The translations under genes were made by a program, and so were the position numbers. The notes beneath the pieces are model-generated. The model had not been told where the DNA came from. It searched no databases and saw nothing but the letters and a program-made list of their open reading frames with translations. A stretch of DNA of 64,000 bases from Treponemataceae bacterium (GTDB taxonomy: Bacteria; Spirochaetota; Spirochaetia; Treponematales; Treponemataceae): contig JAKSTU010000001.1 of the NCBI GenBank assembly GCA_024402435.1, forward strand, positions 1-64,000, in the 5' to 3' direction. Position 1 is the first letter of the stretch, and each line of letters opens with the position of its first letter. Positions 1,581 through 16,177 of this stretch are shown piece by piece.

Positions 1581-2753
1581 TTACCCCTCGATTTCTTTTA
1601 TATATTCTATGAATTTTTTTACTGTCCATATTTCATGTTGGTATTTTTCTGGGTACGTTTTTATATATTTTTCCGGAACAACTAAAACAACTTTCTCTCT
1701 TTTCATTTCTTCAAGCTGAGCTGCAGAAATCCCCTGTTGAAGTGTACATAAAAACTTATTTTTTGAACGTAAACGATCTGCCTCATTCAGAATTTGCCGC
1801 CATCTATCTTTACATGTAGTTTTAGCTGCAAGAGAAGCTAATTTATCTACCGGAAAAGATGCATTATGGTAGGACTCTATAGAAGGGAAAATGAAATCAG
1901 GTTTTTTATTTCCTTCTGTAATTGCCTGAGATGTAAAAGTTATACTATTCCCTAAAAATAATGAACTTAAATGGTGTTCTAAACTTTTACCTGCACGACT
2001 CTTTCTTCTATTCAAAACCTGATTTGCCAATTCTATAAATTTGTCGACATCAGAAAAGTCATTATTTATAAGCACACTATATCGGCTATGCTCGATTGCT
2101 CTAAAAAGACGATATTCTACTTCAGTCCAATCCAACAGTTTATCATCTGGACGCAATTGAATATCTTCTTCATGGTCGAAAACTAAATTTTGAATTCTCT
2201 GTGCAGTAAGAGACATTTCTACTGAAGAAGGAAAATCAGTTTTTAATTTTCTTATGAAATCTTGAATTGCAAGTTTTTCTTTTTCTTCCGAATTGTCAAT
2301 TTCAGTATTTATTAAACGATTGGTTTCTGTCGGGGTAATTCCAAAATAATTAAGGAAATATTCTATTTCGTCCTCAGTTTCAAGAACATATCCTTTATAA
2401 GATGTATCTTTCTGTTTTAATAATATAATTAAAGAACCTGTAAATGAAGGTTTTAAAAATGGAAAATTTTTTCCAAATCCAGTAATACGATACTCGTTTC
2501 TTGTCCCTTGACCATAATATTTGAAATGTGCTTCTGTTTCAAAATCATCTTGCCATTTAATTTTGTTGGAAGATTCTTTATTTTCTCCTTTTACACCAAG
2601 AGTATCAAATATGAGCGAAAAAGAATTCTTTGGAATGTAAATTCCGCTCTGATGGCCTCCAGTTTCTCCTGTATCATTTGCAGAAAGGAACTTACAAAAG
2701 ATTTTATCACTATTTGCGCTATCTTCAATGACTTTATATACAATACTTTCCAT
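1581..2753 (-). CDS. EcoRII-type restriction endonuclease (CC(W/N)GG family)
   Basis: A 390-residue type II restriction endonuclease closely resembling EcoRII throughout. The N-terminal effector/DNA-binding domain (about residues 1-160) has CKFLSANDTGETGGHQSGIY, matching EcoRII's SANDTGATGGHQ segment. The C-terminal catalytic domain (about 230-380) has NRRKSRAGKSLEHHL, AITEGNKKPDFIFPS and TTCKDRWRQILNEADRL, all nearly identical to EcoRII and containing the D...K catalytic residues. EcoRII cuts before CCWGG and is type IIE, needing a second site for activation; the exact target here (CCWGG or CCNGG) is inference. The gene lies 12 bases downstream of the methyltransferase, probably in one transcript. 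Its AT-rich composition contrasts with the core genes and suggests horizontal acquisition. Confidence 0.9.
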   Translation of the reverse strand: MESIVYKVIEDSANSDKIFCKFLSANDTGETGGHQSGIYIPKNSFSLIFDTLGVKGENKESSNKIKWQDDFETEAHFKYYGQGTRNEYRITGFGKNFPFLKPSFTGSLIILLKQKDTSYKGYVLETEDEIEYFLNYFGITPTETNRLINTEIDNSEEKEKLAIQDFIRKLKTDFPSSVEMSLTAQRIQNLVFDHEEDIQLRPDDKLLDWTEVEYRLFRAIEHSRYSVLINNDFSDVDKFIELANQVLNRRKSRAGKSLEHHLSSLFLGNSITFTSQAITEGNKKPDFIFPSIESYHNASFPVDKLASLAAKTTCKDRWRQILNEADRLRSKNKFLCTLQQGISAAQLEEMKREKVVLVVPEKYIKTYPEKYQHEIWTVKKFIEYIKEIEG

Positions 2754-2765
2754 AAACTAGTACCA

Positions 2766-4061
2766 CTAAATCACAAAACGTCTTTCAGCATATATTTTTT
2801 TATTTTCTTCAATTTCATTTTTTACTTCTTTCATAAGGAAAGGTTTTATGAATTCTGCAACAGCATGAAATAAAGGGACTACTACAGAATTTCCAAACTG
2901 TTTATAAGCACGAGTATCAGAAACAGGAATTATATAATCATCAGGATATCCCATTAATCTGGCACATTCTCTTGGAGTCAGTCTTCTTGGATTCTTATTC
3001 TCACCTTGATAAATTAAAATTTCCGAGCCGTCTTTGTAATATCTTGCAGAAAGTGTTCTTGCTATTTCATCAGGTTTTACTAATCCGTAGCCAAATCCAT
3101 TTCCCATAGAACGATGTTTTTGAGCATGAGCTTGCAGATAAGCCCACAGATTATCTGTTAAGGTATACTTATCATGAACTTTATTGTTTTCAAAATCGAA
3201 ATATTTATCTCCATCCTGAATTAACTTTTCTTCCGACCCATCAGTCTTATGTAAAATAGATGAAAGTTTAATCTCTCCTTTTGGAGGTAATTCCATATTA
3301 TCCAATTTAAAATCAATTTTATCTCTGAACCCGACAATAACAATTCTCTCACGATGTTGAGGAACCCAACTTTGACCATCAATAATCTTATAATCACAAG
3401 TATAATTCAAATCTTTTGTCAAAGTTTCCCATATAACTTCAAATGTTCGTCCTTTATCATGTGATTTCAGATTCTTTACATTTTCAAGAACAAATGCTTT
3501 TGGCCGTTTTTCTTTTATGATTCTTGCAACATCAAAAAACAGCGTTCCTTGAGTTTTATCTTCAAAGCCAGTAGGTCGTCCTAATGATTTTTTCTTTGAT
3601 ACACCTGCAATTGAAAACGGCTGACATGGGAACCCAGCCAACAAAACATCATGATCTGGAATGTCTTTTGCATCAACTTTTGTTATATCTCCATTTATCA
3701 AATGTTCGGAAGGATAATTGTTGCTATAAGTTTTTTGGGCATATTCATCCCATTCCGAAGTATACAAGCATTTTCCACCTGCCTGTTCAAACCCTTTTCG
3801 AATTCCCCCAATTCCTGCAAATAAATCTATGAAAGTAAAATCTCCTGATTTTTCGTCATTCTCTTTCGCAGATATCTTTCGTGTAAGCATACTAAATAAT
3901 CTATCTGCTATAAAGTTTTTTGGCTCAACAGTACCATTAAGCCAACGGTGAATTGTACTTTGATTTACTTGAAACTCACTTGCAATATCTGCAATGGTAT
4001 AGAATTTTGTTACTTGTGATAGAAGTTCGGATATTGAGCCTTGGTAAAATGATTCTTGCAT
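2766..4061 (-). CDS. DNA (cytosine-5) methyltransferase, Dcm/M.EcoRII type, with N-terminal HTH
   Basis: A 431-residue C5 methyltransferase that should protect the CC(W/N)GG-type site of the adjacent nucleases. The C5-MTase motifs appear in order: I FIDLFAGIGGIRKGFE (~77), IV GFPCQPFSIAG with the catalytic Cys (~143), VI ENVKNL, VIII QHRERIVIVGF, IX LTPRECARLMGYPDDY and X YKQFGNSVVVPLF. Residues ~20-50 (TIADIASEFQVNQSTIHRWL) form a helix-turn-helix like that of M.EcoRII and M.SsoII, where this region represses transcription of the locus. Autoregulation at the adjacent divergent intergenic region is therefore plausible. The downstream partner is the EcoRII-type nuclease; a second nuclease diverges from the shared promoter region. 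Confidence 0.92.
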   Translation of the reverse strand: MQESFYQGSISELLSQVTKFYTIADIASEFQVNQSTIHRWLNGTVEPKNFIADRLFSMLTRKISAKENDEKSGDFTFIDLFAGIGGIRKGFEQAGGKCLYTSEWDEYAQKTYSNNYPSEHLINGDITKVDAKDIPDHDVLLAGFPCQPFSIAGVSKKKSLGRPTGFEDKTQGTLFFDVARIIKEKRPKAFVLENVKNLKSHDKGRTFEVIWETLTKDLNYTCDYKIIDGQSWVPQHRERIVIVGFRDKIDFKLDNMELPPKGEIKLSSILHKTDGSEEKLIQDGDKYFDFENNKVHDKYTLTDNLWAYLQAHAQKHRSMGNGFGYGLVKPDEIARTLSARYYKDGSEILIYQGENKNPRRLTPRECARLMGYPDDYIIPVSDTRAYKQFGNSVVVPLFHAVAEFIKPFLMKEVKNEIEENKKIYAERRFVI

Positions 4062-4093
4062 ACATTATTTCCATCAAAAAAAGGGATTTATAA

Positions 4094-4106
4094 TTGCATT
4101 ATGCAA
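4094..4106. promoter_or_regulatory. Inverted repeat, candidate operator between divergent RM genes
   Basis: TTGCAT-T-ATGCAA is a perfect 6+1+6 inverted repeat in the 118-bp region between the methyltransferase start (4061) and the divergent nuclease start (4180). Its size and place fit an operator for the HTH domain of the methyltransferase. This is inference from position and symmetry only. Confidence 0.4.
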
Positions 4107-4179
4107 ATTTTATTCCCCATTGTCAATCATTGTAATTACATCACGTATCTTGCCGACAATTTTACAAAGAGAAACAAAT

Positions 4180-5520
4180 ATGGGCTTTTCAAATTATAAA
4201 GAACTCAGCGATTTTTTAATTAAGCTTGGTGTTACAGAAGCATTTTTCAAAATGCTGGCCGAAAATGATAATTCAAAACAGCAATTGTACTTAGGTAGCA
4301 GTTTTAATGTTTTACAGCAACTACCATTTGGAGAAATAACAGAGTATCCTGACAACAAAGAACCAAATTACAAAGCACCGATGGATTTTTATTGGATTGA
4401 CAATTCACTAAATTATGAGAAAGCCCCTCATACACAATTAATTCTTTATCCAAAGTACCCCGAAGTAAGATTGTCAGGATTCTTAAAAGGTTGTTCAACT
4501 GCTCCAAGCAAAGACATGCAACCTATTCCCAAAGGACTAAGAAAAACAAACAACGGAAAAGATGGTCGTGTTTTAATTTTTGGAATAACTCCTGATAATA
4601 AAGTTTATGGATATCTAGCAAGTAAAAATTCTCCACTTGCTATTGATATTGAAAAAAAATTGTATATTTGCATACCTGAAACAGAACGAAAAAAATTAAA
4701 TCATTTTCCTCTTGAAATAAATTCCTTTGCGGATAAGAAAGCGTTGATAATTAAGCTACGGGAACTAGTTCAAAAAGATTGGACACCATCCGTAAGGTTG
4801 AATGCGGATGGTATTGTTAGACCCTATATGGCTCCTAATGGTGGTGGGTATACTATGGAAGCCCATTTTGGAATTATTCCGAATGGAGATGCAGAACCAG
4901 ACTATAAAGGATGGGAATTGAAGTCTTATAGTAAAACCACACTTACACTAATGACCCCAGAGCCAGACAAAGGGTATTACCGTGAAATTGGAGCAAAAGA
5001 GTTTGCCATCAAATATGGACATGATACAGATAAAAAAAATGAACGTTATTTTACCGGACCATTTATCGTAAACAAACCATGTAAGATTTCCGACTTAAAA
5101 TTAGTTCTATCAGGATTTAATGAAAAAACACAAAAAATAGAAGACGTATCTGGCGGAATTATGCTAGTAGATGTAAATAATAATCCAGTTGCAATATGGT
5201 CGTTTTCAGCATTGCTAAAGCATTGGTGCAACAAACATCAACATGCTTGTTATATGCGTTATGAATCTAAAAAAGAAAATGACAATATATTCTATAGATA
5301 TAATCCTGTAGTCCACTTAGGGGAAGGAACAGAATTTCCAAAATTCTTGCAAGCAATGGCAAAAGGTATAATACGATATGATCCTGCCATAAAAGTTACT
5401 TTTGACGAATCTGGAAATAGCAAAGGGAAAGCAAGAAGTCAATTTAGAATCACAGTAAATAACCTTTCGAATCTTTATAACTCATTCAAAAAGATTGATA
5501 TATTCTTAGAAGAAAGATAA
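4180..5520 (+). CDS. MvaI/BcnI family type II restriction endonuclease
   Basis: A 446-residue protein whose central/C-terminal half (about residues 190-440) matches the MvaI/BcnI restriction endonuclease family. PDYKGWELKSYSKTTLTLMT contains the D...E-x-K active site and aligns to the equivalent segment of MvaI; ending blocks such as FRITVNNLSNLY also fit. MvaI cuts CC/WGG and BcnI CC/SGG as monomers. About 190 N-terminal residues extend beyond the ~246-residue MvaI core, possibly an additional DNA-recognition or regulatory domain. I chose ATG 4180 (MGFSNYKE), preceded by AAAGAGAAA, over an upstream in-frame TTG at 4120 with no ribosome-binding site. It is divergent from the methyltransferase and probably restricts the same site as the EcoRII-type enzyme. 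Confidence 0.85.
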   Translation: MGFSNYKELSDFLIKLGVTEAFFKMLAENDNSKQQLYLGSSFNVLQQLPFGEITEYPDNKEPNYKAPMDFYWIDNSLNYEKAPHTQLILYPKYPEVRLSGFLKGCSTAPSKDMQPIPKGLRKTNNGKDGRVLIFGITPDNKVYGYLASKNSPLAIDIEKKLYICIPETERKKLNHFPLEINSFADKKALIIKLRELVQKDWTPSVRLNADGIVRPYMAPNGGGYTMEAHFGIIPNGDAEPDYKGWELKSYSKTTLTLMTPEPDKGYYREIGAKEFAIKYGHDTDKKNERYFTGPFIVNKPCKISDLKLVLSGFNEKTQKIEDVSGGIMLVDVNNNPVAIWSFSALLKHWCNKHQHACYMRYESKKENDNIFYRYNPVVHLGEGTEFPKFLQAMAKGIIRYDPAIKVTFDESGNSKGKARSQFRITVNNLSNLYNSFKKIDIFLEER

Positions 5521-6615: not shown

Positions 6616-9171
6616 TTATTTGATTGTACGGAGGAACGCATCCTTGAATCCGTACATTCTGAAGCGTTCAAGCAGAATCGGGTATTCGTCGGCACGGAGG
6701 GAACCGATCATTACCTGAACAAGACCGCTGTCTGTTTCTACAAGCACCAAAGGATATTTTGCACCGAATTTCTCCACGGTTTCTGTTGCAGATGCGGCTT
6801 TGGAAACTGTAAGAATCTGGATGTAATAACCCTTTGCAAGGTCTTCTCTCTTAACGGTTACAAAAACGGGTTCTGCTGTTTCAGAAACAGATTCCGCAGC
6901 TTCTTCTGCAGGTTCTGCGGTTTCTTCGGTTCCAGTGATTTCTTCGCTTTCATCGGTTCCTTCGGAAACAATGTCTTCTGCCGGTTCTGCTTCATCTTCA
7001 GCGGATTCTTCTTCGGCAGCGGCATTTTTTCCGGTGATTCCAAGTTCTTCAAGAAGGTCACGGATGTTTTCCTGATACTCCATGTCAGCCTCGGAAGCAG
7101 TGTAATCAGAACCTGAGAATACAGGAATGATCATTACTTCAGGTTCATCGTAGAAACCTTCATAGCTTACATAATCATCGCTTGAAACAGGAGGCTTAAG
7201 TTCTGCGGGGATGAGAGAAACTTCGGTTTCGTCTTCAGGTTCTTCTGCTGATTCTGATTCTTCGGACACTGCTTCAAAAACTTCTTCAAAGGCCGGGATT
7301 TCTTCAACCGCTTCGGCTTCAATTTCTGCAGCAGGCTCCTCTTCGGCAGCCGGTTCTTCTTCGGGAACCAGTTCTTCTTCTGAAGGTGTTTCTCCTGCTT
7401 CAGCAGGAATCATTTCTTCATCAATGATTTCTTCTTCGATGACTTCCTCTTCGATGACTTCCTCTTCGATAACTGCTTCTTCTTCGAAAGCGGGTTCTTC
7501 TTCGATGATTTCTTCTGTCACAGATTCTTCAGACTCTGCAGGAATATTTTCTTCAATGATTTCTTCATCAGTTTCTGCGGCTTCTTCTGTAACAGCGGGT
7601 TCTTCCTCTATTACTTCTTCTGCAACTTCTTCTTCGGAAAGGATTTCTTCCGGTGCCGCCACAGTTTCTTCAACTTCTTCAGCGGCCTTTTCCATTGCCA
7701 GTCTTTCAGCTTCAGCGGCGGCTTCTGCTTCGGCAGCTGCTTTTGCTTCAGCCTCTTTTTCCTGCTTTATGATACTTTTAAGCCACTCAACAAGATCATC
7801 CTTGTACTGGGACATTCCTGATTTTTCAGGCTCTTTTGCAGGTTCGGGCTCAGAAACTGTTTCAGGGACATTAACCGTTGTTTCTTCCGGGTAAGTTTCT
7901 TCTGTTTCCGGTTCAAATTCATTGTCGTGTTCAGGTTCAGACTCGTAATATTCATCAGGAGTTTTTTCAGCGGATTCATCAGCTTTTGGCTCAGAAGTTG
8001 CGTAGTAATCCGAATATTCAGGATATTCAGGCTCTGTTGCTTCAACCTTTTCAAGTTCTTCAAGCTCTTCAATTTCTTCCGCTTCAGAAACTTTTTCAGC
8101 TGCGGATTCTTCCTCCGGTTCTGATTCTTCGGTTACATAATCCAAAGTTTCTTCAACCACAGGGTTCAAATCATAAGGAACTTCCGTAGGAGCAAAATCA
8201 CCTTCTTCTTCAGTTTCTTCTTTTTCAGATTCTGCTTCAGCAAGTTTTTCTTCTGATTTTGCAAGAAGTGCTTCAACATACTGAGAAATCAGGTCATAAG
8301 GATAACCTTCAGAAATTGATTCAGCACTTTCAGTTTCGCCGGCATCAGGTTCCGCAATGTCAGATTCAGCCGGCCCTTCGCATTCAGTTTCATCAGCAGC
8401 AGGTTCCACAACGGCAGGCACATTCTCCGCATTTTCGGCAGTCCAGGCATTTTCTGCGCTTTCACCCTTTTCTGCATTTTCCACTGTCTCCAATGTTCCA
8501 GGTTCTTCAGAGACAACAGGCACAACAGCAGCTTCCGGTTCGGCTTCTTCTTCAGTTTCATCAGGTTCAGCAGTTTCTTCTGCTGTTTCCGAGAGGTTTT
8601 CATCATCTGCAAATGATTCTTCAGATCCAGTCTCGTCAGCTTCTTCAGCTTCCGGCTCTTCAACAAGAATTTCTTCTATGGGCAGAAGCGGTTCTTCAAC
8701 ATAGAAAATCGGTTCTTCAACAACAATTGCAGGTTTTTCAAAAACCGGATCTTCAATGTTCAGTTCAGGATTGATATCAGCATCTGTTTCCGGAGAATAC
8801 TGCTCAATTTTAGAAGAAAGCAGAATTGACTGCTCCACATAACCGCTTGTTTTTTTCGTTACTTTTACAATTGTATTGGATCCTCTGTTTATGCGCAGTT
8901 CCCGTGCAGCTTCAGGCGAAAGAAGAATTGCAACACCTTCGGAAGGATCAATCGTACCGAAAACCATTACTTCAAGGCTGATGTTTGAATTGGGATTGGT
9001 AACGATTACTGTATCACCCGGCAGAAATCCCGGAGACTTTGCATAGAATCCTACAGGGAGAGCTCCGATATTTGCAACAACGGCACGACCGTCCAAAGAC
9101 GGCTTAACACTTTCTGCAAAAACAGCAGACAAAATCAAAATTGAAAAAAGCAGAGCTGCAATTTTTTTCAT
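6616..9171 (-). CDS. Secreted DPBB-SPOR envelope protein with very long acidic linker
   Basis: An 851-residue exported protein. Residues 1-19 are a Sec signal peptide (LLFSILILSAVFAES). Residues ~28-108 resemble a double-psi beta-barrel of the RlpA type (GRAVVANIGALPVGFYAKSP, PGDTVIVTNPNS, VAILLSPEAARELRI). Residues ~110-770 are extreme low complexity dominated by Glu, Ala, Pro and Ser (EEVIEEEVIEEEIIDEEMI). The last ~75 residues form a SPOR domain (KGYYIQILTVSKAASATETV, VQVMIGSLRADEYPILLERF), which in other bacteria binds septal peptidoglycan lacking stem peptides. RlpA-like plus SPOR architecture suggests a role in cell-wall binding or cell separation; the catalytic residues of RlpA are not evident. 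It overlaps the upstream secreted-protein gene by ATGA, so the pair is translationally coupled. Confidence 0.75.
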   Translation of the reverse strand: MKKIAALLFSILILSAVFAESVKPSLDGRAVVANIGALPVGFYAKSPGFLPGDTVIVTNPNSNISLEVMVFGTIDPSEGVAILLSPEAARELRINRGSNTIVKVTKKTSGYVEQSILLSSKIEQYSPETDADINPELNIEDPVFEKPAIVVEEPIFYVEEPLLPIEEILVEEPEAEEADETGSEESFADDENLSETAEETAEPDETEEEAEPEAAVVPVVSEEPGTLETVENAEKGESAENAWTAENAENVPAVVEPAADETECEGPAESDIAEPDAGETESAESISEGYPYDLISQYVEALLAKSEEKLAEAESEKEETEEEGDFAPTEVPYDLNPVVEETLDYVTEESEPEEESAAEKVSEAEEIEELEELEKVEATEPEYPEYSDYYATSEPKADESAEKTPDEYYESEPEHDNEFEPETEETYPEETTVNVPETVSEPEPAKEPEKSGMSQYKDDLVEWLKSIIKQEKEAEAKAAAEAEAAAEAERLAMEKAAEEVEETVAAPEEILSEEEVAEEVIEEEPAVTEEAAETDEEIIEENIPAESEESVTEEIIEEEPAFEEEAVIEEEVIEEEVIEEEIIDEEMIPAEAGETPSEEELVPEEEPAAEEEPAAEIEAEAVEEIPAFEEVFEAVSEESESAEEPEDETEVSLIPAELKPPVSSDDYVSYEGFYDEPEVMIIPVFSGSDYTASEADMEYQENIRDLLEELGITGKNAAAEEESAEDEAEPAEDIVSEGTDESEEITGTEETAEPAEEAAESVSETAEPVFVTVKREDLAKGYYIQILTVSKAASATETVEKFGAKYPLVLVETDSGLVQVMIGSLRADEYPILLERFRMYGFKDAFLRTIK

Positions 9172-9698
9172 CTTTTTCCTCCCGATTTTTTGGCTTTGAA
9201 TTCCTTTACTTTTTCATTTATGGAATCGGCAATATTCTGTGCCATCTTTTTTATTCCCGAAGAAGAACTGGCTTCCTTTGCAGAAAAACTCAGTCCGTCC
9301 TTTCTGAAAATTTCAGTATTGTCGGCAACGTTTGTAATCACATAATCAATTGACTGGATGTCTGACGCAAGGGGCGTACTTACGTTTGTAGATCCGCGCA
9401 CAAAATGGAGTGTTACCACCACGAAATAATCCATGCAGCCGCTTACCGCATCAGAAAATGCAAAATAAATGTCGTTTTCGGCAGATGCGCCTTTTGTCAT
9501 GGGACTGTCAGAAACAATGTGCCCCATGTCGTAAAGTTCGCTCATCAGATTTGCAGAAAAAGTCTTTGTCGTTTCACGGATTGAAAGCATTTCGCCCTGT
9601 GCTTCCTGCTGGTTGAACATTATGCTTATGTTCGCCGGATGCACCCGGACAGCAGCTGCAACAAACAGACACAAAACACTCATAAGTCGTCTGTGCAT
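9168..9698 (-). CDS. Small secreted protein of unknown function
   Basis: A 176-residue protein beginning MHRRLMSVLCLFVAAAVRVHPA, a probable Sec signal peptide, followed by a mixed alpha/beta domain with no motif I recognise (MFNQQEAQGEMLSIRETTKTFSANLM). The chosen ATG at 9698 follows GGAGGGG by five bases; an in-frame TTG twelve bases earlier overlaps that ribosome-binding site and is rejected. A mature segment with FSDAVSGCMDYFVVVTLHFV and IDYVITNVADNTEIFRKDG hints at a lipoprotein-like or CsgG-like periplasmic fold, but this is only an impression. The gene ends ATGA inside the start of the DPBB-SPOR gene, so the two are probably made together. Confidence 0.7.
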   Translation of the reverse strand: MHRRLMSVLCLFVAAAVRVHPANISIMFNQQEAQGEMLSIRETTKTFSANLMSELYDMGHIVSDSPMTKGASAENDIYFAFSDAVSGCMDYFVVVTLHFVRGSTNVSTPLASDIQSIDYVITNVADNTEIFRKDGLSFSAKEASSSSGIKKMAQNIADSINEKVKEFKAKKSGGKR

Positions 9699-9823
9699 TT
9701 TCCCCTCCAAGTATAAATGCCACGTATTCTTTTATATCTTCGGCAAAAGAGGATTCCGATTTAAGCAAAAAATGTGTTTATTTCAAACAGGCTGCAAATC
9801 CATGTTTGCATTTTTATTTTGGA

Positions 9824-9861: not shown

Positions 9862-11400
9862 GTGCCTACACCTACAGAAAAATCGCTTTACATTATCGGA
9901 GCAGGTTTTGCAGGGCAGATGATTGCTGAAGACATAAAGCACAAAAAGATTTTCGGAAAAGTTGCCGCATTTTTGGACGATGACGAATCCATAATAGGAA
10001 AAAAAATTGATGACATTCCTGTTCTTGGCCCCATCAACCACTTTATTTCTTTTTTGCGCCATACCGATTCTGACGAAGCAATCATTGCAATGCCTTCTGT
10101 TCCCAACGAACGGATCCGGCAGGTTTATGACGAACTTGTACGTTGCGGTTTCAGACACATCCGCATTCTTCCTGCAATTTCACAGGTTATAGAAGGCAAT
10201 GCCCATTTTGTTCAGGCAAGAGAAATTGATCCTCTGGACATTCTAGGTCGCACGCCCGTTACGATTTCTTTAAAAGAAAGCCTTGCTTACCTGCGCGGAA
10301 AACGGGTTCTTGTAACCGGCGCGGGCGGTTCCATCGGTTCCGAACTTGCACGTCAGCTTTTGAGCGGCGGTGCAGAAAGACTTTATCTTTTCGGACACGG
10401 GGAAAACTCGATTTATCAGATTGACCGTGAACTGCGGCTTCTTCAAAAAGAAGGCGTGGGCGAAAAAGCAACAGTCGTGCCTGTGATCGGTGAACTCAAG
10501 GACCGCAGCTACATGGAATGGATTCTCAAGCAGCTGCACTGCGACATTGTTTTCCATTGTGCCGCATACAAGCATGTTCCTTTAATGGAAGAAAACCCTG
10601 TTGCAGTAATCGAAAACAACGTTCTCGGCACAAAAAACCTGCTTGATGCTTCTCTTGCATCAGGTGTTTCCCGTTTTGTCCTGATTTCTACCGACAAAGC
10701 TGTTGAACCTGTAAGCGTTTACGGCGTTTCAAAGATGCTGTGCGAAAAACTTGTTCTTGAAGCTTCAAGAACACTTGCGGATTCAGGCGAAGACAAAGAC
10801 AAAGCTTACATGTTCGTGCGTTTCGGCAATGTGCTTGGTTCCAGGGGATCCGTACTTCCTGTATTCATGAATCAGATTAAGAACGGCGGCCCGTTAACGG
10901 TTACTGACAAAGAAGTAAAACGCTATTTCATGACCATTCCCGAAGCCTGCTCTCTGGTGCTCAAAACCGGAGGCGTGGGGACAAACGGCATTCCTTACAT
11001 GCTTGACATGGGCGAACCCATAAAGATTCTTGAACTTGCAGAACAGTGCATAAGATTTTCGGGTCTTGAGCCATACAAAGACGTTCAGATTGAAATTACG
11101 GGACTCCGTAAAGGCGAACGTCTTGACGAACCTCTCTGGCTTGATGAAGAAAACCCGAGGCAGACGCAGTATCCCAAAATCATGCAGCTTACACCGCCAA
11201 AAGACAATTTTTCAGGCGAAAACCTTGCGAATCTGCTTAAGAAACTTGATGAAATCTGTACCGGCAGAGGATCAGCTGATTCCCCTGAGTCGGCAGAAAA
11301 ATACAGAAACAGGGATCTCCTCAAAAAAATCCTCAGTGATCAGGTTTCAAGCTACAGATACTTTCTGGAATCCAACGGAGAAAAGGCTGGTTCAAAATGA
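9862..11400 (+). CDS. CapD/FlaA1-like sugar-nucleotide 4,6-dehydratase
   Basis: A 512-residue polysaccharide-biosynthesis protein of the CapD/WbpM/PglF group, which converts UDP-GlcNAc-type substrates to 4-keto-6-deoxy sugars. Residues ~1-130 are the CoA-binding-like Rossmann domain; the four N-terminal membrane helices of full-length WbpM are absent. The SDR domain starts near residue 150 with VTGAGGSIGSELARQLL. It also shows HCAAYKHVPLMEENPVAVIE and STDKAVEPVSVYGVSK, which keeps Tyr where WbpM-type enzymes often have Met. The start is GTG, seven bases after AGGAGG. Its ATGA overlap with the aminotransferase indicates a coupled operon making a 4-amino sugar nucleotide for surface glycans or protein glycosylation. 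Confidence 0.85.
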   Translation: MPTPTEKSLYIIGAGFAGQMIAEDIKHKKIFGKVAAFLDDDESIIGKKIDDIPVLGPINHFISFLRHTDSDEAIIAMPSVPNERIRQVYDELVRCGFRHIRILPAISQVIEGNAHFVQAREIDPLDILGRTPVTISLKESLAYLRGKRVLVTGAGGSIGSELARQLLSGGAERLYLFGHGENSIYQIDRELRLLQKEGVGEKATVVPVIGELKDRSYMEWILKQLHCDIVFHCAAYKHVPLMEENPVAVIENNVLGTKNLLDASLASGVSRFVLISTDKAVEPVSVYGVSKMLCEKLVLEASRTLADSGEDKDKAYMFVRFGNVLGSRGSVLPVFMNQIKNGGPLTVTDKEVKRYFMTIPEACSLVLKTGGVGTNGIPYMLDMGEPIKILELAEQCIRFSGLEPYKDVQIEITGLRKGERLDEPLWLDEENPRQTQYPKIMQLTPPKDNFSGENLANLLKKLDEICTGRGSADSPESAEKYRNRDLLKKILSDQVSSYRYFLESNGEKAGSK

Positions 11401-12575
11401 CAGAAAACAATGATTCCATTCCTTTTTTCAGGGCAGACATAGGTCCGGAAGAAGAAAACGCGGTTTTGCGCGTGCTCAGAAGCGGATGGCTTACTACTGC
11501 AAAAGAAACAAAGGCTTTTGAAGAAGAATTCAGTGCATTTACAGGCGCAAAGCACAGTCTTGCCGTAAACAGCAACACATCGGGTCTGGTGCTTTCAATG
11601 GAAGCCTGCGGAATCCGGGAAGGGACCAAAATCCTTACAACGCCCTACACCTTTGTTTCTACGGCTACTTCTGCAAGACATCTGGGTGCAGACGTGGTTT
11701 ATGCGGACATTGAAAAAGACTCATACAATATTGACCCGGAACAGATTGAAGCAAAACTCAAAGCTGATTCTTCCATAAAAGCCGTGGTTCCGGTACACAT
11801 TGCAGGTAATCCCTGCAACATGAAGGCAATTCTTGACATTGCAAAAAAATACGGCGTGCGTGTAATTGAAGACGCGGCCCATGCTTTTCCCGCCAAAACT
11901 GATTTAGGTTATTGCGGAACACTGGGAGACACCGGAGTTTTCTCTTTTTATGCAACAAAAACCATTACAACCGGTGAAGGCGGAATGGTCTGCACCAATG
12001 ATGACGAACTTGCAAAGCGTATGTCCACAATGCGCCTCCACGGAATTGACAGAAACGTCTGGGACCGTTACACGTCAAAAACTGCGTCCTGGCAGTATGA
12101 CGTAACAGATCCCGGATTCAAGTTCAACTTGCCTGACATTCTGAGCGCAATGGGCCGGGAACAGCTTAAAAAAGCAAACCGGCTTTTTGAAAACCGTAAA
12201 AAAATTGCGGAAAAATACAGCAAGGCTTTTGTTGACTGCGATTTTCTCCGTATTCCGCCTGACGGAAATGGAAACGCCTGGCATCTTTACATAATCAGAA
12301 TTGTTCCTGAAAAACTGAACATTTCACGTGATGAATTTGCCGCAGAACTTCAGAACCGGGGCATTGCAATTTCCATGCATTTCATTCCCCATTATCATTT
12401 TTCCTACTGGAAAGATCTTTACTGCCTTGAAAGCAGAGATTTTCCCAATGCGGAAGAAAAATTCCTGGCAAGCATAACATTGCCCATGTTCCCTTCCATG
12501 ACTGAAGATCAGGTGGAAAGAGTCATAAAAACTGTAAGAGACATCGGCAAAGAGCATTACAAAAATCAGGGTTGA
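11397..12575 (+). CDS. DegT/DnrJ/EryC1/StrS family sugar aminotransferase
   Basis: A 392-residue PLP-dependent aminotransferase. DegT-family landmarks are the N-terminal FFRADIGPEEENAVLRVLRS, NSNTSGLVLSMEACGI, TPYTFVSTATS, VIEDAAHAFPA, the PLP-lysine segment FSFYATKTITTGEGGM (Lys about residue 188) and RNRGIAISMHFIPHY-like end blocks. It would aminate the 4-keto sugar nucleotide made by the preceding dehydratase. The gene begins ATGA within the stop of the dehydratase gene and its own stop is two bases before the next ATG. The exact sugar product cannot be read from sequence. Confidence 0.88.
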   Translation: MTENNDSIPFFRADIGPEEENAVLRVLRSGWLTTAKETKAFEEEFSAFTGAKHSLAVNSNTSGLVLSMEACGIREGTKILTTPYTFVSTATSARHLGADVVYADIEKDSYNIDPEQIEAKLKADSSIKAVVPVHIAGNPCNMKAILDIAKKYGVRVIEDAAHAFPAKTDLGYCGTLGDTGVFSFYATKTITTGEGGMVCTNDDELAKRMSTMRLHGIDRNVWDRYTSKTASWQYDVTDPGFKFNLPDILSAMGREQLKKANRLFENRKKIAEKYSKAFVDCDFLRIPPDGNGNAWHLYIIRIVPEKLNISRDEFAAELQNRGIAISMHFIPHYHFSYWKDLYCLESRDFPNAEEKFLASITLPMFPSMTEDQVERVIKTVRDIGKEHYKNQG

Positions 12576-12577
12576 AA

Positions 12578-14881
12578 ATGGCTAAGAAGAAAACTGCAAA
12601 AGGAACCGCAGAAAATACGGCTTCGAAAAACAAATATGTCTCAAACTTTTACAGCGATCTTGAAAAAGACGGCATGCTTCATGCTGTGCTGCTGAGAAGC
12701 CCGCGGAAATGCGGAAAAATTGAAGACATACGGCTTCCTGTTTCAGAAGGTGATGACATTCACCTGATTACTGCAAAAGACATTCCCGGGAAAAACCAGG
12801 TGGAGACAGTGGACACACAAATGCCGCTGCTTGCTGACAAAGAAGTTTTTTACGCCGGACAGCCAGTTGCCATTGTTGCAGGCCCGGATTTGAAAAAACT
12901 GCAGATTCTTCTTGAATCGGCAGAAGTGATTTTTGAAAAAGCCGAAGCCCCGCAGAAAGAAGAAAGCGGCGCTGAAAAAAGCGAAGACGATTCCGGAACA
13001 GAACCGGACTCAGAAAACGCAGAAAACGCAGCAGAAACAGCTCACTCTGAATCAGTGACGGAAGCAGCAGCAGAAACTGGAGCGGAAGCGGAAATCCCTG
13101 AAGAATCACTTGCAGAAGCCCCGCAGATAGCGGAAGCAGAAGCAGAAAAATCAGAGTTCTCAGAGCATGCAGAATCAGAATCATTGCCGAAACCTGTCAA
13201 AAATCAGGAACCGGCTGAAAAAGTTCTGTACAAAAGAACCGTTTCCTGGGGAGATTTTGAAACTCTTTTTCAGGAAGCACCCAATCACCTGGAAAATACT
13301 TTTTCTTTCAACCTGCAGAAAAGCAGCTATACGGAAACAAACGGTGCATTTGCTGATTTTTCCGACAATTCACTTGAAATCCATACTCCTACAAAATGGA
13401 TGTCCCATCTTAGGAAAAATCTTTGCGCCGTACTTGGAATCACGGAAGACAGACTGACAATTCACCGCACACCATCTACAGCAGAACAGACAAACAGCGT
13501 GTGGAACAATACGGTTCTTTCCTGTCTCTGCGCAGTGGCTTCATGCTGCACAAAACAGCCTGTAATGCTTTCTCTGAGCCGTGAGGAACAGGAAACCTTC
13601 ATTGACAAAGAGCCTTCCGTAACAATTACCCACCAGACAGCTTTTACAGACGAAGGCGCAATCTCCGCGGCAAAAGTCAGCATCACTCTGGAAACAAGTC
13701 CATACAGTCCCTTTATTTCCAACTTCATTGACCACTTGGCACTTTCCGCTTACGGAGCATACAAGCCTGCCTCCGTGTACATAGAAGTAAAGGCTCTGGA
13801 AGCCAATGTTCCGCCCTTTGCATTCCAGATGCAGAGTGCAAACTCCCAGGCTTTCTTTGCCCTTGAAAGCCAGATTTACTCAGTCTGCACAAAGCTCCAT
13901 CTTACGCCGATTGAAGTCCACCTGAAGAACTTTTTCCCCGCAGCTTTGTTTGCACGCCCTGTCATACCCTATGCAATCGAAAGCAACGATCTTTTCGGCA
14001 TATACGAATCAATTCAGGTCAAAAGCGATTTTCTCAGAAAATACAGTTCATACAATTTCATGCACCTTACGGACAGCAGTTATGCAGAAACTTTCCCCGT
14101 CCGCGGAATTGGTTTTTCAACTGCTTTTGAAGGCAACGGCTACTACGACGAAACCCTCAATGCACTCAAGCAGAAAATTGCCGTTACAATGGAAACGGAC
14201 GGTTCCGTTACAGTGCATCTGCCACAGCCGTCACGTTCCATAACAAGCATCTGGAAGCGGATCGTATCAGAAGAACTGGAAGTTCCGCCGGAATCAGTAC
14301 GCATTGACGAAAGCGACCCGGAACTGAACAACTCTGCTCTTCCCGAAACCCTTATGAACAATGTCAATATTGTTTCAACACTGATTCAGAAATGCTGTCA
14401 GGGAATACAGAAACAAAGATTCAGGACACCGCTTCCGATTACCGTAAAAAAAGGTCTCAGCATTTCCAACAAAAAGCTCTGGGATTCGGAAACTTTTACA
14501 GGAACACCCTATTATTCAACCACATGGGGAGCCGCAGTCTGCGAAATCGAAATAAATCCTGTGATTTACGAAATCGGAATCCGCAATCTCTGGATTACGA
14601 TCAACTGCGGAAAAATGATGGACAAAAAGCAGGCTCAGTCTTCCGTATTGAGGGAAACCCAATATGTGCTGAAAAACCTCATAGACAAGGTTCCGCTTGT
14701 TCCGCCAAAAATCCATATTGACTTTCTGGAGAGTGAAGACGAACCCAAACAGATCGGGCAGCTGATACGTTCCGTCGTACCTGCCGCCTTTGCAAGTGCC
14801 GTTTCTCAGGGAATAAAAAACACGATTCATGAAATGCCGCTCAAGAACAGTTCTGTCTACAGGATGGTTAACCCGCAATGA
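12578..14881 (+). CDS. Xanthine-dehydrogenase-like large subunit with degenerate molybdopterin site
   Basis: A 767-residue protein aligning end to end with the molybdopterin subunit of xanthine dehydrogenase/aldehyde oxidase. The hammerhead domain (GMLHAVLLRSPRKCGKI, PLLADKEVFYAGQPVAIVAG, ~25-120) and linker landmarks (SYTETNGAFADF, FFALESQIYSV, TPIEVHLKNFF, YYSTTWGAAVCEIEINP) are preserved. Cofactor motifs are not. Where GGGFGGK is expected there is TPSTAEQTNSVW; FRGFG is replaced by FAFQMQSANSQ; GQGxHT by PQPSRSITS; and the catalytic Glu of the final GEPP block by Gln (IGQLIRSV). An insertion of ~95 residues rich in Glu, Ala and Ser (about 125-220) interrupts the hammerhead. ATG 12578 follows CAGGG; the TTG at 12572 is rejected. 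It probably forms a complex with the next two gene products without a molybdenum cofactor. Confidence 0.75.
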   Translation: MAKKKTAKGTAENTASKNKYVSNFYSDLEKDGMLHAVLLRSPRKCGKIEDIRLPVSEGDDIHLITAKDIPGKNQVETVDTQMPLLADKEVFYAGQPVAIVAGPDLKKLQILLESAEVIFEKAEAPQKEESGAEKSEDDSGTEPDSENAENAAETAHSESVTEAAAETGAEAEIPEESLAEAPQIAEAEAEKSEFSEHAESESLPKPVKNQEPAEKVLYKRTVSWGDFETLFQEAPNHLENTFSFNLQKSSYTETNGAFADFSDNSLEIHTPTKWMSHLRKNLCAVLGITEDRLTIHRTPSTAEQTNSVWNNTVLSCLCAVASCCTKQPVMLSLSREEQETFIDKEPSVTITHQTAFTDEGAISAAKVSITLETSPYSPFISNFIDHLALSAYGAYKPASVYIEVKALEANVPPFAFQMQSANSQAFFALESQIYSVCTKLHLTPIEVHLKNFFPAALFARPVIPYAIESNDLFGIYESIQVKSDFLRKYSSYNFMHLTDSSYAETFPVRGIGFSTAFEGNGYYDETLNALKQKIAVTMETDGSVTVHLPQPSRSITSIWKRIVSEELEVPPESVRIDESDPELNNSALPETLMNNVNIVSTLIQKCCQGIQKQRFRTPLPITVKKGLSISNKKLWDSETFTGTPYYSTTWGAAVCEIEINPVIYEIGIRNLWITINCGKMMDKKQAQSSVLRETQYVLKNLIDKVPLVPPKIHIDFLESEDEPKQIGQLIRSVVPAAFASAVSQGIKNTIHEMPLKNSSVYRMVNPQ

Positions 14882-15366
14882 ACATACCGGTAATTGTCAA
14901 CAACAAAGAAATAACATTCAATGCCAAGCCTGATGATTCCTTGGCCGACGTCCTCCGCAGCTACGGCTTCAAGTCCGTCAAATGCGGCTGCAAACGCGGG
15001 CTCTGCGGTTCATGCACCGTTCTCCTTGAAGAAAAGCCTGTCTGTGCATGCAGAAAACCCATCGCATCCGTACGCGGTCAGCATGTAACCACTCTGGAAG
15101 GCTTTATGTCCACGCAAATTTACGCTGACATAACAAAGGGCTTTGAACAGGCGGGAATCCATCTGTGCGGTTTCTGCAATGCGGGCAAATATTTCGCTGC
15201 CTACGAAATCCTCAACAGCGGAACAAGGCCTACTCAGGAATCAATTATCGAATACACCAATTCCTTTACCTGCGAATGCACCGAAAACTCAAAAGTTATT
15301 TCAGGAATTCTTACAGCGGCCACATTATACAGAAAACACAGTTCAGGAAGCGAAAATGCCAATTAA
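14878..15366 (+). CDS. 2Fe-2S subunit of the XDH-like complex
   Basis: A 162-residue two-cluster ferredoxin subunit of the xanthine dehydrogenase type. The plant-type cluster ligands lie in CGCKRGLCGSCTVLL plus a later Cys (KPVCAC), and the helical-domain cluster ligands in CGFC and CEC (FTCECTENSKVISGIL). All expected Cys appear present, so both clusters should assemble. The Gln that normally precedes CGFC and touches the molybdopterin is Leu here (HLCGFC), which fits the missing cofactor site in the partner. It starts within the ATGA stop overlap of the large subunit and overlaps the FAD subunit by 11 bases. Confidence 0.88.
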   Translation: MNIPVIVNNKEITFNAKPDDSLADVLRSYGFKSVKCGCKRGLCGSCTVLLEEKPVCACRKPIASVRGQHVTTLEGFMSTQIYADITKGFEQAGIHLCGFCNAGKYFAAYEILNSGTRPTQESIIEYTNSFTCECTENSKVISGILTAATLYRKHSSGSENAN

Positions 15367-16177
15367 CAAAAGTTCAGTATATTTTGCCAACAACAGCAAT
15401 GATGTTCAGTTTCATCTCAAGACAATCTCAAATCTTGAAGTTTTCGGCGGCTGCACAACCGTAAAAACTTTTCCTCCGGCAGCCCTGATAATCGGAAATC
15501 TTGCCGAATACAAGGGAATCGTGCGTCACGAACGCTTTATTGAGTTCGGGGCCGCGGTAACACTGGGAGACATTCTTGCCCTGCAGAAAAAAAGGCTTCC
15601 TGCAGTTTTTTACCAGGCAGCCCTTTCCGTAGCAAATCCCTTCATAAGAAATGCAGCCACCATCGGCGGCAACATCTGCGGCCAGCATCCGTCCGGTGTA
15701 CGCCACACTCTCTACGGGCCGCTCCTTGCCCTCGACGCAATGATAGAACTGCGTTCATCCGCGTCAACCAGTACGATTCCGCTGAGCAAGTTTACAGGCG
15801 TGCCGAAAGGGTATTTTCTTTCAAGAGTGCGCGTTCCCATTGAAGACTGGGACATTGAAGAACAGGTAAGGCTCGGGCCGCCTCATGAGCTTACGGAAGA
15901 ATCTGGCACCTACACTTTTCTTGCAAACACACAGAAGGGCATTCTTTTTGACGTGCGCATCGCTTTCTGCAGTTCAATCGTTCTCCGCAGCCGTGAACTT
16001 GAAAACAACATCGTAGGAAAAAGACTTCCTCTTTCAGAAAACGACATTGAAAAAATGACTGATACGGCAATGGCGGTCTTTGATTCCATTCAGGAAATCC
16101 ACGACCACAACATACAGCCTGTGCTTAGAGCCCAGTTTGAATCACTGCTCAAGCATTCTTTAAGCCAGCTGTCCTAG
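15356..16177 (+). CDS. FAD-binding subunit of the XDH-like complex
   Basis: A 273-residue FAD subunit like CoxM/XdhB. FAD motifs are intact: GGCTTV near residue 30 (GGxT) and IRNAATIGGNICGQHPSG near residue 105 (TIGGN block). The C-terminal CO-dehydrogenase-flavoprotein domain follows (VRIAFCSSIVLRSRE, GKRLPLSENDIEKM). I chose ATG 15356; the longer open frame upstream is out-of-frame reading of the 2Fe-2S gene. Its TAG stop shares the palindrome CTAG with the stop of the convergent DUF4340 gene. With the two preceding subunits it gives a plausible FAD plus two 2Fe-2S electron-transfer module. Confidence 0.85.
   Translation: MPINKSSVYFANNSNDVQFHLKTISNLEVFGGCTTVKTFPPAALIIGNLAEYKGIVRHERFIEFGAAVTLGDILALQKKRLPAVFYQAALSVANPFIRNAATIGGNICGQHPSGVRHTLYGPLLALDAMIELRSSASTSTIPLSKFTGVPKGYFLSRVRVPIEDWDIEEQVRLGPPHELTEESGTYTFLANTQKGILFDVRIAFCSSIVLRSRELENNIVGKRLPLSENDIEKMTDTAMAVFDSIQEIHDHNIQPVLRAQFESLLKHSLSQLS

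Follow-up and report, generated by a model that had tools for sequence, protein, structure and literature searches.

A xanthine dehydrogenase-like complex of spirochaetes that appears to have lost its molybdenum site and to be kept for another function

The first 64,000 nucleotides of contig JAKSTU010000001.1 (assembly GCA_024402435.1) from a Treponemataceae bacterium, referred to here as the window, encode a complex of the xanthine dehydrogenase (XDH) type whose large subunit lacks the motifs that hold the molybdenum cofactor (Moco). The complex is specified by the last three of five plus-strand genes, each overlapping the next, which encode a CapD-type dehydratase (C), a DegT aminotransferase (D), the large subunit (L), a ferredoxin-type subunit (S), and a flavin adenine dinucleotide (FAD)-binding subunit (M) (Table 1). 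The initial annotation had described the trio as an XDH-shaped complex with a lost molybdenum site, which is borne out here, and had overlooked the coupled CapD and DegT genes. It is almost certain that L-S-M is Moco-free. Judging from the sequences, the chances are about even that it is, in most of its members, a FAD/2Fe-2S redox complex in which L would serve as a scaffold.

Pfam and NCBIfam assign L, S, and M to the XDH family. L matches MoCoBD_1 (2.5e-32), MoCoBD_2 (2.1e-14), and Ald_Xan_dh_C (4.5e-9), and S matches Fer2 and Fer2_2. The best score of L, about 104 bits, is far under every equivalog cut-off, those for XDH lying at about 780–850. Sequence searches of the PDB with the trio returned only members of the XDH family above background. 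The AlphaFold model of L (mean confidence, pLDDT, 82) contains the hammerhead, MoCoBD_1, and MoCoBD_2 domains of a functional XDH, and Foldseek matches it to XDH large subunits along its full length, with a template modeling score of about 0.72 to bovine xanthine oxidase, indicating that the fold is complete and that the subunit is alignable end to end, as had been claimed. The insert comprising residues 126–212 of L is missing from several relatives. The model of M (pLDDT 93.6) matches XDH-family FAD subunits. The overall architecture of one large subunit, two [2Fe-2S] clusters, and FAD, the subunit types, and the full L fold are therefore those of bovine xanthine oxidoreductase, R. capsulatus XDH, quinoline 2-oxidoreductase, and nicotinate dehydrogenase. 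L-S-M differs from these enzymes by the absence of the Moco motifs, by the absence of a Gln before the CGFC motif of S, by a clade-specific Trp beside the Mo-apical Gln position of L, and by hosts that mostly lack Moco synthesis.

Relatives of L were drawn from 145 genomes of the family, 247 genomes of the phylum, and 80 named loci, the last obtained with a narrower alignment; among the 156 related L sequences, a few are duplicate retrievals of one gene. The same searches also yielded four true XDHs (L036, L079, L080, and L086), which served as controls. At the corresponding alignment columns, FGG, RGFG, and GQG are missing from every one of the 156 relatives, whereas GG(A/G)FGGKE, RGFG, GQG, and GAKxxGE are present in all four true XDHs. 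The window L lacks the cofactor loops of a functional XDH, FGGK(E), FRGFG, and GQGxxT, and its profile alignment to bovine xanthine oxidase places non-matching residues at all cofactor-motif positions. The initial annotation had allowed for intact motifs elsewhere in the subunit, and neither a string search nor the alignment located any in the window L. Among the relatives, two FGGK strings (L101 and L166) lie at unrelated positions and are attributed to chance. The further claims that the catalytic Glu and indeed every cofactor contact had been lost hold only in part. The catalytic-Glu column, which we take to correspond to bovine Glu1261, is occupied by Gln730 in the window L instead of the Glu of functional XDH, but it varies freely and is Glu in 24/76 and 35/80 relatives; the Mo-apical column, presumably that of the Mo-contacting bovine Gln767, is still Gln in 51/76. 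As read from the alignments, the consistent losses are FGG, GQG, and RGFG rather than the Glu or the Mo-apical Gln. The one strong new feature of the L clade is Trp276, since Trp directly follows the Mo-apical column in 73/76 and 79/80 relatives and Cys occupies this position in all four true XDHs. Conserved columns specific to the clade are otherwise Gly, Leu, or Pro (G48, L621, P622, and P737), none of them of the polar catalytic type, so that L shows no sign of a newly conserved polar active site.

The survey of homologues and molybdopterin-synthesis genes proposed in the initial annotation was carried out on the 106 good-quality genomes of the family and gave an L homologue in 106/106, MoaC in 12/106, and MoeA in 5/106. 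Neither MoaC nor MoeA was found in the window genome (G000, 93.6% complete) or in its genus relatives, leaving the window genome without the Moco supply of a functional XDH. No Moco synthesis genes were found in G020, a closed genome of 1,139,633 bp that is apparently Treponema pallidum, in which the locus would presumably be TP0077–TP0081; the papers searched included no study of the trio or of locus tags TP0079–TP0081, and no experiment on the complex. In the class at large, most tested hosts of the degenerate trio also lack MoaC. In a few Treponemataceae genomes the degenerate trio coexists with MoaC and with a complete XDH that retains all motifs (e.g. L036, G034:C110).

The degenerate form makes up one lineage that covers some twelve families within the spirochaete class and is found on almost all sampled branches. 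A tree of 69 L proteins contains a branch, with an SH-aLRT support of 100, that sets the four true XDHs apart from the rest. The degenerate sequences cluster largely by taxonomic family, as expected for vertical inheritance, with some long branches placed uncertainly. Genome G034 has an intact XDH (L036) as well as a degenerate trio (L084), which indicates two separate lineages. L evolves fast, with 24–40% identity among relatives compared with 51–69% for the window C against operon copies across the class. The ratio of nonsynonymous to synonymous substitution rates (dN/dS) between close relatives is about 0.02–0.21 for L, S, and M, and the reading frames are intact in the family genomes, including the reduced 1.14-Mb genome G020. 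The low ratios argue for selection and not decay, as had been proposed, and a trio kept by selection without its molybdenum site must do some other job.

The sites for electron transfer are present in the window, where S has all eight cluster Cys and M has GGxT and TIGGN, as originally noted, which provides for two [2Fe-2S] clusters plus FAD. The reported change from Gln to Leu before CGFC in S was also found; this residue is Gln in all four true XDHs, as in functional XDH, and in none of the 75 S sequences of the named relatives. The plant-type set of four Cys is complete in 67/75 S sequences of the first set and in 75/75 of the named set, and by their motifs most members clearly keep the ancestral redox sites. 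We propose that molybdopterin was lost from an XDH-family heterotrimer prior to the divergence of the families sampled within the spirochaete class, and that the complex was kept afterward for another function. M would accept electrons from a soluble donor, for example NAD(P)H, and hand them on through both clusters of S. L would no longer perform chemistry, its old cofactor cavity being altered around Trp276, and could instead act as a scaffold onto which the true acceptor or donor docks. In operons that couple the complex to CapD and DegT, it probably serves a redox step or a protein partner of the same amino-sugar pathway, that of the flagellin glycan. Successive losses of cofactors in some lineages may have left a reduced cofactor set or a scaffold only. 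For the window and most relatives, this redox model, in which M receives, S conducts, and L docks, is the most likely fit.

Several observations weigh against the redox model. In G020 all four plant-type Cys of S are replaced (by H, N, S, and Y), and they are partly lost in six further S sequences; at locus L063 (G248:C1:2505000-2520000) S lacks all eight cluster Cys within an intact five-gene operon. The first Cys of the CxC motif is replaced in 19/75 S sequences, with neighboring Cys mostly kept. Family f9 (L070 and L083) has lost FAD motif 1, and in families f9 and f12, which lack flagellin, L-S-M persists with no cognate CapD or DegT. Where the distal cluster is absent, the classical path from FAD to the clusters is broken. 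Across the aligned members of the class no cofactor site is invariant, and the scattered losses exclude, for the class as a whole, a common function needing every ancestral redox site. The earlier statement that the electron-transfer subunits are kept therefore applies to the window and most relatives but fails in G020, L063, and f9, and the suggested role as an electron conduit is not supported as a universal one.

The scattered losses are better accommodated if the complex is a pure pseudoenzyme, a non-redox structural or regulatory assembly that binds a protein or ligand and for which FAD and the clusters are losable leftovers. Every cofactor site is lost somewhere and in differing combinations: Moco is missing throughout, the T. 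pallidum-like clade and G010 lack the plant-type cluster, L063 lacks both clusters, and f9 lacks FAD motif 1. The rapid evolution of L and its lack of a gained conserved polar residue also favor such an assembly. However, most members keep the plant-type Cys and the FAD motifs under purifying selection, and a plain scaffold would not need them. A pseudo-molybdoenzyme of the whole class, with a conserved job that needs no ancestral cofactor and a part as a new scaffold or regulator kept even in the highly reduced genome of the syphilis spirochaete, is a tentative proposal that we consider rather unlikely, though it is the strongest competitor of the redox model.

The gene neighborhood directs attention to amino sugars. 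The best solved relatives of C are WlaL entries (5bjy and others, E ~1e-72). D scores 361 bits with the PseC model, under its cut-off of 423.5, and is ArnB-like in the PDB. In 3,6-dideoxysugar synthesis, FAD/[2Fe-2S] E3-type reductases work with DegT-fold E1 dehydratases, and the locus resembles these systems in pairing a DegT-family protein with a flavin/iron-sulfur partner. However, the pyridoxal phosphate (PLP) lysine of D, K188 in SFYATK, is invariant in 14/14 relatives, which identifies D as an ordinary aminotransferase and rules out an E1-type dehydratase needing an iron-sulfur/flavin reductase; L-S-M is, moreover, unrelated to the E3 reductases. The order C-D-L-S-M is found on one strand in 62/80 named loci, and contig ends interrupt most of the remaining ones; with single exceptions the order is also kept in families f1 to f5, f8, f10, f11, and f14. 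A NeuB-family gene is present in 106/106 good-quality family genomes, including G020, so that a UDP-GlcNAc 4,6-dehydratase, a PLP aminotransferase, and a genomic NeuB together provide for an amino-sugar pathway of the nonulosonic-acid/bacillosamine type. The flagellins of Treponema denticola bear a novel 450.2 Da glycan that is essential for filament assembly (PMC9481697), and C and D plausibly feed a flagellin-type glycan of this kind.

These features, together with the translational coupling of the genes and the absence of C and D where flagellin is absent, could be explained by a dedicated redox enzyme for a nonulosonic-acid-type flagellin glycan, whose substrate would be the nucleotide amino sugar that CapD and DegT produce. 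We consider this improbable, although not negligibly so. The flagellin-less families f9 and f12 weaken a role solely in flagellin glycosylation; conversely, the small Borreliaceae-type genomes of family f6 have flagellin and none of the five genes, and no conserved catalytic residues are present in L. The persistence of L-S-M without CapD-DegT indicates that a role in the sugar pathway is not the whole answer and that the complex has some other or additional role. The neighbors of L-S-M in f12 are the housekeeping genes for DnaE, DNA ligase, and YggT and give no functional clue. In f9 the gene directly upstream on the same strand (L070:8947-9501) matches NusG, with a relative in the same place at L083:8679-9302, and this neighborhood likewise holds no functional clue.

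It is very improbable that L-S-M has remained a molybdoenzyme or that altered contacts allow its old cavity to bind a different pterin: the fold is kept, and the Mo-apical and catalytic columns often retain Gln and Glu, but the glycine-rich cofactor loops are intact in none of the relatives, most hosts lack the Moco synthesis genes, and the pterin-contacting Gln of S is replaced. A decaying relic, which the motif loss and the fast evolution of L might suggest, is scarcely credible, pseudogene decay being refuted by the dN/dS values, the intact frames down to the 1.14-Mb genome, and an operon order kept across families.

The features of the locus are collected in Table 1. The frame of M is already open from 15143, with an ATG start at 15356. 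Divergent from the CapD operon are a gene for a long acidic repetitive protein (6616-9171) and a small upstream gene (9168-9710); this pair occupies the same position in many Treponemataceae, and its products have no Pfam match. Elsewhere in the window (1581-5520), an EcoRII-type restriction endonuclease (1581-2753), a C5-cytosine methylase (2766-4061), and a MvaI/BcnI-family endonuclease (4120-5520) lie side by side, so that two endonuclease families adjoin one methylase.

Table 1. Features of the five-gene locus, in window coordinates
Feature	Position	Strand	Basis or remark
C, CapD/PglF-type nucleotide-sugar 4,6-dehydratase, operon gene 1	9862..11400	+	Polysacc_synt_2 6e-107
D, DegT-family sugar aminotransferase, 4-nt overlap with C	11397..12575	+	DegT_DnrJ_EryC1 2e-113
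L, XDH-like large subunit, apparently without Moco site	12572..14881	+	start TTG 12572 or ATG 12578
Acidic low-complexity insert of L, residues 126-212	12947..13207	+	predicted disordered, pLDDT < 50; variable in relatives
Trp276 of L, beside residue aligned with Mo-contacting Gln	13397..13399	+	clade-specific
TAEQTNSV segment of L, aligned with lost GG(F/A)FGGKE motif	13478..13501	+	alignment
Gln730 of L, catalytic-Glu column	14759..14761	+	EPKQIGQ vs GAKGAGE
S, ferredoxin-type subunit, 2 x [2Fe-2S]	14878..15366	+	Cys38/43/46/58 and Cys97/100/132/134
Leu96 of S, replacing Moco-contacting Gln before CGFC	15163..15165	+	alignment
M, FAD-binding subunit, overlaps S	15356..16177	+	FAD_binding_5 2.7e-21
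FAD motif 1 of M, GGCT	15446..15457	+	motif
FAD motif 2 of M, TIGGN	15659..15673	+	motif

Family models label these genes as molybdopterin-binding dehydrogenase subunits, and Treponema is thereby credited with a molybdenum enzyme for whose cofactor most of the class has no supply. That all good-quality genomes of the family contain the trio, the apparent T. pallidum genome of about 1.14 Mb among them, suggests that it probably matters to the cells. The complex also presents a naturally occurring progression, the stepwise loss of cofactors from an electron-transfer assembly. It may be compared with NuoG/Nqo3 of respiratory complex I, a molybdoenzyme-derived subunit that has lost Moco and is still held within an electron-transfer complex; NuoG/Nqo3 belongs to another molybdoenzyme family, that of dimethyl sulfoxide reductase, its fold is unrelated to XDH, and its function is known, whereas L-S-M is a complex of the soluble type. 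The coupled CapD and DegT genes provide a testable link to the amino-sugar pathway that is thought to feed the flagellin glycans of spirochaetes.

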